From assembly GCA_030649205.1 (NCBI GenBank), contig JAUSGE010000015.1:1-38076 (forward strand): a stretch of 38,076 nucleotides of DNA. The letters are read 5' to 3'. Position 1 is the stretch's first letter; each line of letters begins with the position of its first letter. A program made the translations under genes and the position numbers. The notes beneath the pieces are model-generated. The model had not been told where the DNA came from and ran no database searches. It saw nothing but the letters and a program-made list of their open reading frames with translations. Shown here piece by piece: positions 19,957 through 22,048 of the stretch. This stretch comes from a bacterium (lineage in GTDB: Bacteria > Patescibacteriota > Patescibacteriia > Patescibacteriales > GWC2-42-12).

Positions 19957-19985
19957 TTGACACTTTTAAAGGTTTAAAATATAAT
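19957..19985 (+). promoter_or_regulatory. Promoter of thrS
   Basis: Consensus -35 TTGACA (19957-19962), 17-base spacer, consensus -10 TATAAT (19980-19985). The T-box leader starts a few bases downstream. Confidence 0.9.
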
Positions 19986-19991
19986 AATATT

Positions 19992-20160
19992 ACATAAGGC
20001 GATTGCCGCGCTTACCAGGCGCGGTGCCGTGAATACGGCATCCTTTCGGGACTAAGCCTAAACTAATTAAGAGCAGCTAAGCTGAAGCTGGGTGGAACCG
20101 CGGGAAAAATGACCCCGTCCCAGTGCATTAATTTTTTTTGATGCATTGAGACGGGGTTTT
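19992..20160 (+). promoter_or_regulatory. T-box riboswitch controlling thrS
   Basis: The T-box core GGTGGAACCGCGGG is at 20091-20104. The antiterminator pairs CTGGG (20088-20092) with CCCAG (20119-20123) and CGGG (20101-20104) with CCCG (20114-20117), leaving TGGAACCG as the bulge that pairs with an uncharged tRNA acceptor end. The competing terminator is a 17-base stem, 20112-20128 with 20141-20157, ending TTTT. Stem I is short (about 19997-20059), closed by AGGC/GCCT. Candidate Thr specifiers are ACT at 20051-20053, near the 3' side of the basal stem, and ACC at 20014-20016 in a hairpin loop; I cannot decide between them. It should turn on thrS when tRNA-Thr is uncharged. Confidence 0.9.
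20112..20160 (+). terminator. T-box terminator
   Basis: ACCCCGTCCCAGTGCAT (20112-20128) pairs with ATGCATTGAGACGGGGT (20141-20157) with one mismatch and one wobble, then TTTT. Exclusive with the antiterminator. Confidence 0.85.
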
Positions 20161-20175
20161 AAATTAATAAGTATT

Positions 20176-20201
20176 TTCTACCCGGCTTTAGCCGGCGTTA
20201 G
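20176..20201. repeat. CCGGCTNAAGCCGG element, copy 3
   Basis: TTCTACCCGGCTTTAGCCGG followed by CGTTAG, between the T-box terminator and thrS. Confidence 0.85.
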
Positions 20202-20217
20202 CAATTAATACGTAAAA

Positions 20218-20276
20218 TTAACTCTGGCTAAAGCCAGGCAGAAAAAATAATTAACTCTGGCTAAAGCCAGGCAGAA
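20218..20276. repeat. CCGGCTNAAGCCGG element, copies 4 and 5 in tandem
   Basis: Two 33-base units (starting 20218 and 20251) with TTAACTCTGGCTAAAGCCAG and GCAGAAAAAA. The arms have changed on both sides (CTGGCT/AGCCAG), so pairing is kept. They end 17 bases before the thrS ATG. Confidence 0.85.
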
Positions 20277-20293
20277 AAAAGAGAAATAATAAT

Positions 20294-22048
20294 ATGTCCC
20301 AAGAAAACAACCAAAAATTAGAGGCTATCCGCCATTCACTGTCCCATATCATGAGCATGGCGGTGGAAGAGCTGTATCCCAAGGTCGGACTGGGCGCGGG
20401 GCCGGCGATTGAGAACGGCTTTTATCAGGATTATGATTTTCCGGAAACGATCACGCCGGAAATTTTACCCAAGCTGGAAAAACGGATGAAAGAGATTTTA
20501 AAAGAGAACCTTGAGTTTGTTCAGCATGACGTGGACTATGACGAGGCTTACAAGTTCTACAAGCATGACCCGTATAAGACCGGCTTTATTGACGACCTAA
20601 AAGCGGCCGGCGAGAAAAAAGTCAGTTTCTATAAATCCGGCCGGTTTGATAATCTCTGCGCCGGACCGCATGTTGCTTCCACCAAAGAAATCAATCCCCA
20701 GGCGTTTAAATTGACAAAAATCGCCGGCGCTTACTGGCGGGGGAGCGAGAAAAATAAAATGCTGACTCGCATCTATGGCCTGGCTTTTGCCACCAAGCAA
20801 GAGCTGGATGAATATTTAAAGATGATGGCAGAAGCGGAGAAGCGCGATCATCGTAAGTTAGGTAAAGAGTTAGGGTTGTTTGTTTTCTCCGATTTGGTAG
20901 GTCCGGGGCTGCCGCTCTATACTTTTAAAGGCGCGATAATCAGGCGGGAAATAGTTAATTTTTCCAATGAACTTCAAAAAGCCATCGGCTACCAGGAAGT
21001 GCATACGCCCAATATGAATAAAGCTGAACTGTTTAAAGTGTCGGGCCATTATGAAAAATATAAAGAAGATATGTTTCGGGTGGTGTCCAATTACACTGAA
21101 GAAGAATATTTTCTTAAGCCTATGAACTGCCCCCAGCACACCCAGATTTACGCTTCTCAAATGAGAAGCTATCGGGATTTGCCGGTAAGGATCGCGGACT
21201 TCGCTAATCTTTATCGCGACGAAAAACCCGGTGAATTATCCGGGCTGACGCGCCTTCGATGTTTTTGCCAGGACGATGGCCATAGTTTTTGCCGCGAAGA
21301 CCAGATTAAAGATGAATTTTTATCAGTTCTGTCCGCGATTAATAAGGCCATGAAAGTCTATGGCATGAATTACAAAGTCAGGCTGTCGCTTTGGGATCCC
21401 GAACAGCCGGAAAAATATTTGGGCGAAGTTTCTATTTGGGAAAAATCCCAGAAACTACTTGAAGATATTTTAGTTGACAATAAAATTGATTATTACCGGG
21501 CGGTTGGCGAGGCCGCGATTTACGGCCCGAAAATGGATTTGATTTCCAAGGATTCATTGGGCCGCGAATGGCAAATCTCCACGATTCAGCTTGATTTTAT
21601 CATGCCCCAAAGGTTTAATTTGACTTATATTGACGAGTCTGGCAAACAAAAAACACCAGTCATGGTTCACCGGGCAATCGTCGGTTCACCGGAACGGTTT
21701 CTAGGAATTTTAATTGAGCATTACGCCGGCGCGTTTCCGGTCTGGCTGTCGCCGGTTCAGGTAAAAATTGTTTCCGTGGCCGAGGCGCACGCGGAATTTA
21801 GCCAGGAACTGGCAGATGAGTTTAAACAAAATGATATTAGAGTGGAAGTTGATGACAGCGATGAAACCGTGGGCAATAAAATTAGAAAAGCCGTGGCCGA
21901 GAAAGTGCCGTACATGCTGGTGATCGGCGATCGGGAGATGTCGTCTGACAAATTAGCCGTGCGGGACAGGGGAGAAAAAACGACTCGGGAAATCGGCAAA
22001 CAGGAATTTATGCAAGAAGTGAAGGAGAAAGTAAGAAGCAAGAAGTAA
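20294..22048 (+). CDS. thrS: Threonyl-tRNA synthetase without TGS domain
   Basis: Charges tRNA-Thr. At 584 residues it is shorter than the roughly 640-residue E. coli enzyme because the N-terminal TGS domain is missing: it starts directly with the editing domain, whose HSLSH (14-18) and CAGPH (122-126) supply the metal-type editing motifs. The class II core follows, with KPMNCPQH (zinc Cys and motif region), motif 2 FANLYRDE...LTRLRCFCQDDGHSFC, motif 3 VGSPERFLGILIE, and a C-terminal anticodon-binding domain. No Shine-Dalgarno is seen. Expression is controlled by the upstream T-box. Confidence 0.96.
   Translation: MSQENNQKLEAIRHSLSHIMSMAVEELYPKVGLGAGPAIENGFYQDYDFPETITPEILPKLEKRMKEILKENLEFVQHDVDYDEAYKFYKHDPYKTGFIDDLKAAGEKKVSFYKSGRFDNLCAGPHVASTKEINPQAFKLTKIAGAYWRGSEKNKMLTRIYGLAFATKQELDEYLKMMAEAEKRDHRKLGKELGLFVFSDLVGPGLPLYTFKGAIIRREIVNFSNELQKAIGYQEVHTPNMNKAELFKVSGHYEKYKEDMFRVVSNYTEEEYFLKPMNCPQHTQIYASQMRSYRDLPVRIADFANLYRDEKPGELSGLTRLRCFCQDDGHSFCREDQIKDEFLSVLSAINKAMKVYGMNYKVRLSLWDPEQPEKYLGEVSIWEKSQKLLEDILVDNKIDYYRAVGEAAIYGPKMDLISKDSLGREWQISTIQLDFIMPQRFNLTYIDESGKQKTPVMVHRAIVGSPERFLGILIEHYAGAFPVWLSPVQVKIVSVAEAHAEFSQELADEFKQNDIRVEVDDSDETVGNKIRKAVAEKVPYMLVIGDREMSSDKLAVRDRGEKTTREIGKQEFMQEVKEKVRSKK

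Follow-up and report, generated by a model that had tools for sequence, protein, structure and literature searches.

What kind of T-box stands upstream of thrS at this locus, where stem I appears to span only about 60 bases, and which threonine codon does it present? The leader lies in a window of 38,076 nucleotides, which is the whole stretch of DNA that was analysed and belongs to a 1.22-Mb genome assembled in 50 contigs. The downstream gene (20294..22048, forward strand) encodes threonyl-tRNA synthetase according to Pfam and NCBIfam TIGR00418 (682.6 bits), and by ThrRS sequence its nearest named relatives belong to the Patescibacteria, Falkowbacteria and Buchananbacteria being examples. The T-box that had been predicted upstream of thrS is real, and its promoter, specifier domain, stem III, antiterminator and terminator were all found. 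The features are arranged as follows.

19957..19985, forward strand: sigma-70-type promoter, TTGACA-17-TATAAT, with a 12/12 match to the consensus.
19997..20000, forward strand: 5' strand of helix P1, AGGC, pairing with 20056-20059 (MFE fold and covariation).
20001..20004, forward strand: junction GAUU, which together with G 20005 makes the conserved GAUUG motif (28-leader alignment).
20005..20025, forward strand: P2 specifier hairpin with a 7-bp stem (six conserved pairs and a G-U) and the 7-nt loop UUACCAG (covariation).
20014..20016, forward strand: specifier ACC (Thr) at positions 3-5 of the P2 loop, followed by A; invariant in 28 aligned leaders.
20026..20039, forward strand: P3 hairpin (MFE fold).
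20041..20051, forward strand: P4 hairpin, adjoining CUAA (MFE fold).
20052..20055, forward strand: conserved junction CUAA; C, A and A are invariant and U is present in >90% of sequences in alignment A3.
20056..20059, forward strand: 3' strand of helix P1, GCCU (MFE fold and covariation, as for the 5' strand).
20069..20086, forward strand: stem III (pairing 20074-20077/20081-20084), flanked by the purine stretches AAGAG and AA (MFE fold; AAGnG and AA conserved in 28 leaders).
20088..20123, forward strand: antiterminator with helices A1 (20088-20092/20119-20123) and A2 (20100-20104/20114-20118) (MFE fold and compensatory changes).
20093..20099, forward strand: T-box bulge UGGAACC, aligning with the Rfam T-box core.
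20111..20160, forward strand: intrinsic terminator, a hairpin extending to about 20158 and followed by UUUU (fold of -31.9 kcal/mol).

The promoter is as textbook as the original prediction had it, and transcription is predicted to start near 19992, a few bases 5' of P1. Promoters with at least 9/12 matches occur within the 60 bases upstream of 24 of the 28 homologous leaders, compared with 4.5 expected from shuffled sequences, and in most of these the -10 box is positioned immediately 5' of P1. With the promoter placed just before P1, a longer stem I could not fit. The folding energy of the leader is better than that of 200/200 shuffles (z -5.0).

In the unconstrained MFE fold of positions 19990-20125, P1 encloses the three hairpins P2, P3 and P4, and stem III and the antiterminator form 3' of it. 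The 5' domain from P1 to P1' (19997-20059) measures 63 nt, close to the predicted length of about 60 bases. The proposal that the leader represents a compact class holds in that there is a compact specifier domain forming a class of its own; however, this domain is a four-way junction and not a shortened version of the canonical stem I arm. Helix P2 is paired in 98.8% of the alignment cells of the 28 leaders, with compensatory changes at 6/6 conserved pairs. Helix P1 is paired in 94% of cells of alignment A3, in which the placement of CUAA was picked to favour P1 pairing, and each of the four P1 pairs shows double changes; the unaided alignment provides weaker but clear support, with 88% of cells paired. 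The covariation score of P1 and P2 together is 0.944 across the 28 leaders, compared with 0.332 for shuffled sequences and 0.05-0.17 for slid partners. RNAalifold applied to A3 predicts P2 and not P1, and the support for P1 is the counted covariation. The sequence AUUG is invariant in the 28 leaders and the preceding G is present in >90% of them. Between P2 and CUAA most leaders contain two successive hairpins, and the one beside CUAA has a mean stem of 4.0 bp, compared with 2.6 bp in shuffles. P3 and P4 recur across leaders but vary in sequence and length, and one leader (L047) has one of the two.

The original prediction left the specifier undecided between ACU at 20051 and ACC at 20014. The comparison with thrS leaders of relatives settles it in favour of ACC 20014-20016, which is present at the aligned position and occurs in the leaders of further relatives as well. 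A class IV-like arrangement, in which a short stem I would present ACU at 20051 as the specifier from a side bulge, is extremely unlikely. The three bases 20051-20053 do constitute a Thr codon with a purine next to it (GGGACUAAGCC), but many relatives have C, G or U in place of the A (GGGCUAAGCC, GGCCUAAGCC and UUUCUAAGCC are examples), with GGGCUAA, GGCCUAA or UUUCUAA at this site, so that CUAA is kept while the codon, unlike ACC in the P2 loop, is not. ACU was rejected because it is not conserved in the 28-leader alignment. A leader peptide with Thr codons was also rejected: on inspection, the region 19992-20110 holds no ATG frame, and no Thr codon occurs in its short frames starting with GTG or TTG.

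The genome that carries the window encodes a matching tRNA-Thr(GGU), with the anticodon loop AUGGUAA and discriminator U73. Its anticodon is complementary to ACC, its 3' end UCCA matches UGGA of the T-box, and the A that follows UGG is complementary to U73. Complementarity in the loop extends to UUACCA of the leader and UGGUAA of the tRNA. Conservation of the P2 loop is good only for ACC and the next A, indicating that the longer loop pairing is not required. With the codon at positions 3-5 of its 7 nt, the P2 loop is much like an anticodon loop, and this arrangement, together with the UUACCA/UGGUAA complementarity, makes loop-loop kissing plausible. In other apical-loop T-boxes of the phylum the codon tracks the gene: GGC in glyS, GAC or AAC in aspS, AUC in ileS, and AGC in serS leaders, with the identities of these genes confirmed.

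The T-box bulge and the antiterminator have the textbook form ascribed to them, and helices A1 and A2 could both be located. The 5' part of the terminator and the 3' side of the antiterminator use the same strand, which makes the two folds mutually exclusive. The terminator hairpin, predicted to have 17 bp, has 20 bp with one 1x1 mismatch. A search with the Rfam T-box model, which had been suggested as a check, gave a match, but at 41.6 bits (E 5.9e-8 in a 451-bp scan) it is below the gathering score of 93 bits. The alignment pushes the stem I model onto DNA 5' of the promoter; the real match is therefore that of the 3' core alone, and the T-box identity of the leader rests on this core. It is the core that aligns with RF00230 (GGGUGG-ACCGCG ... 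CGUCCC), whereas stems I and II of the model have no counterpart. In a lax scan of the leader, the other Rfam families gave only chance matches to miRNA, snoRNA and sRNA.

Known T-boxes with a short stem I are mostly translational (PMC10482949), and the U-tract of the terminator in the window is short, with four U (UUUUAAAUU). Both points would suit a T-box acting on ribosome access, in which the hairpin is incidental. However, the hairpin is very stable, overlaps the antiterminator strand, and is about 130 nt away from the start codon, and a long hairpin followed by a U-rich tail is present in 27 of the 28 homologous leaders. Translational control is therefore very unlikely, and the leader is better read as an attenuator of transcription. 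The gap of about 130 nt between terminator and start codon contains palindromic repeats, which makes post-transcriptional effects possible. These REP-like repeats (CTGGCTAAAGCCAGGCAGAAA) occupy positions 20174-20280 of the window, as three copies, of which two are direct, each of 32 nt, and the third is inverted. The pattern has 46 matches genome-wide with at most 2 mismatches, and the reversed control pattern has 0.

The distribution of the compact form was determined with R2, a covariance model restricted to the 5' domain, with neither the antiterminator nor a gene in it. Within the order, 56 of 111 genomes have an R2 match, and within the class 44 of 240; nearly every such genome has just one. 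These counts are lower bounds, as the Infernal filters were strict for many genomes. In the genome that carries the window, the only significant place is the one in the window. All 50 inspected loci of the order have a T-box core shortly downstream and then thrS, and more than half of these loci are outside the training set of R2. Among 25 loci outside the order, the T-box core was found in 23 and most show thrS; an ACC loop was counted in 24, a number that is not independent, because the scoring favoured AC codons, and one locus lies outside the inspected stretch. The invariance of ACC among R2 matches is in part built in, because all training sequences carry ACC. About 20 thrS loci from other phyla, the majority with canonical T-boxes, gave no significant match to R2, and neither did the other three T-boxes of the genome that carries the window. 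In several compact thrS T-boxes outside the order (L277, L282, L283, L285, L289, L292, L294, L296, L297, L298), the near-universal ACCGCG is replaced, and the replacement has a matching 3' partner (e.g. ACCACCC...GGGGUCCC), constituting a variant of antiterminator helix A2.

The view of the original prediction that this is an unusual find in the group is not supported. Of 61 genomes searched in the order, 48 have some match to the Rfam T-box model, two of them over the cut-off, and the compact thrS form is present in about half of the genomes of the order searched with R2. The Rfam score far below the gathering cut-off could be taken as a sign of a decayed T-box without function. Such decay is hardly credible in view of the compensatory changes over the order and class, the strict linkage to thrS, the perfect promoter, and the intact terminator.

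Four classes of T-boxes have been published (PMC10482949). Classes I and II have a long stem I and are generally transcriptional; class III has a short stem I with a specifier in an apical loop of 5-6 nt, requires stem II, and is mostly translational; class IV has a stem I of intermediate size and is also mostly translational (PMC10482949). The compact thrS leader has the features of the T-box superfamily, namely a UGGN bulge in an antiterminator that excludes the terminator, a specifier that fits thrS, and a match to the discriminator. Its core marks it as a T-box, but it appears to lie outside all four classes: a long stem I, a stem II domain and a standard kink-turn are missing, and still the leader has a transcription terminator at its end. 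It differs from class I in that a long stem I with the IDTM (AGAGA / UGxRA) is missing and the specifier is in an apical and not an internal loop. Class I T-boxes of thrS in Bacillota and Chloroflexota (L145, L152) share with it the gene, UGGA and the terminator, and ACC is also seen in them, but their stem I arm is long, stem II is present, and R2 gave no significant match to them. The class II glycine T-box of glyQS is likewise transcriptional and lacks a stem II domain; the compact leader has a Thr and not a glycine specifier, and no long stem I. Class IV would require a side-bulge specifier, for which the candidate ACU is not conserved.

There is also a close resemblance to class III, represented by ileS T-boxes of Nocardia farcinica and Mycobacterium tuberculosis (PMC10482949, PMC7583486). 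Shared features are the short stem I without IDTM, the apical specifier followed by a purine, stem III, the T-box bulge, and the 3' switching core. The leader could thus be a divergent member of this ultrashort class, with an apical specifier, kink-turn and stem II as in ileS of Actinobacteria, particularly as the same phylum contains an ultrashort ileS T-box (L211) with a GAUGA kink-turn-like junction, an S-turn and CCCGUUA, and aspS leaders with an S-turn and CCCGUUA. This assignment is unlikely, however. The 3' end of P1 (20059) is separated from stem III (20074) by 14 nt, which therefore accommodate neither stem II nor a IIA/B pseudoknot, and there is no S-turn. The junction is GAUUG/CUAA instead of the GAUGA/GA of a kink-turn, and the tandem GA/GA signature is missing from it across the 28 leaders; it may form an unorthodox kink. 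P1 encloses two extra hairpins, giving the four-way junction, and the specifier loop has 7 nt in contrast to the penta- or hexanucleotide loop of class III (PMC10482949). Furthermore, the thrS leader ends in a terminator and specifies Thr, whereas class III ileS leaders have a sequestrator and specify Ile.

Several other T-boxes were observed in the genome and the phylum. In the genome that carries the window (G000), contig C17 contains two long T-boxes of canonical form that exceed the Rfam cut-off (L001, L002), upstream of GNAT acetyltransferase genes; the coordinates given with them are L083 10158-10385 and 17961-18186, minus strand. A third, sub-threshold T-box is positioned upstream of a PLP-dependent TrpB-like gene. 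The glyS leaders of relatives (L016, L030, L040, L208, L215) contain an even smaller glycine T-box, with one hairpin whose loop (e.g. AGAUUGGCA) has the specifier GGC. It is organized as hairpin, linker, stem III, antiterminator and terminator, without stem II or a long stem I, and is possibly the smallest of all T-box architectures. The leaders of ileS (L211, L219), serS (L222) and aspS (L021, L015 and L051 among others) contain ultrashort class III-like T-boxes, with AUC, AGC, GAC or AAC as the apical specifier. These T-boxes come from Patescibacteria and not from Actinobacteria; S-turn-like and CCCGUUA elements occur in several of them, and a transcription terminator forms their 3' end. The Asn codon AAC in some aspS leaders is expected if the AspRS is non-discriminating. 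The trpS and trpB leaders of the order (L011, L018, L023, L033, L049 and others) seemingly have a short arm with UGGG after the hairpin, a side-bulge specifier resembling that of class IV; they contain long inserts before the T-box and again end in terminators.

The thrS leader is very probably a transcription-attenuating T-box riboswitch of a compact and apparently undescribed architecture. The analysis shows its elements, their covariation, the linkage to thrS and the matching tRNA; binding of tRNA and the switch itself are inferred from what is known of T-boxes. Transcription from the sigma-70 promoter would start a few bases before P1, and the nascent RNA would fold into the four-way junction, with P2 presenting ACC in its 7-nt loop. 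Uncharged tRNA-Thr(GGU) would then pair loop to loop with ACC, and its free UCCA end would pair with UGGA of the T-box bulge, stabilizing the antiterminator and enabling the polymerase to read into thrS, as in the known T-box mechanism. Charged tRNA-Thr would be unable to pair in this way, so that the 20-bp terminator would form. In place of the missing kink-turn and stem II, it is probably the GAUUG/CUAA junction, perhaps helped by P3 and P4, that would orient or clamp the paired codon and anticodon.

The leader probably represents a fifth T-box architecture, so far found in Patescibacteria only, in which a cloverleaf-like four-way junction would present the codon in an anticodon-like 7-nt loop that kisses the tRNA loop, and the new junction motif GAUUG/CUAA would stand in for the IDTM, kink-turn and stem II, quickly enough for transcriptional control. 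No report of T-boxes in Patescibacteria, the Candidate Phyla Radiation (CPR) or Parcubacteria was found in the open-licence literature, and it is possible that a report exists elsewhere. In TBDB, the forms that it calls class II (translational) were sought only in Actinobacteria, and the rest were taken from Rfam and other collections (PMC7778990), which may explain why the compact thrS form went unnoticed. According to published accounts, transcriptional T-boxes generally need a long stem I with elbow contact, those with a short stem I need a kink-turn and stem II, and a T-box functioning without a kink-turn has been flagged as an interesting question (PMC7583486). The thrS leader appears to be a natural transcriptional T-box without the elbow-contact arm, kink-turn or stem II, and with its length of about 170 nt it would make the need for these elements directly testable. 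With it, the range of T-box control comes to include the candidate phyla radiation, in which the Rfam cut-off hides nearly all T-boxes from view.
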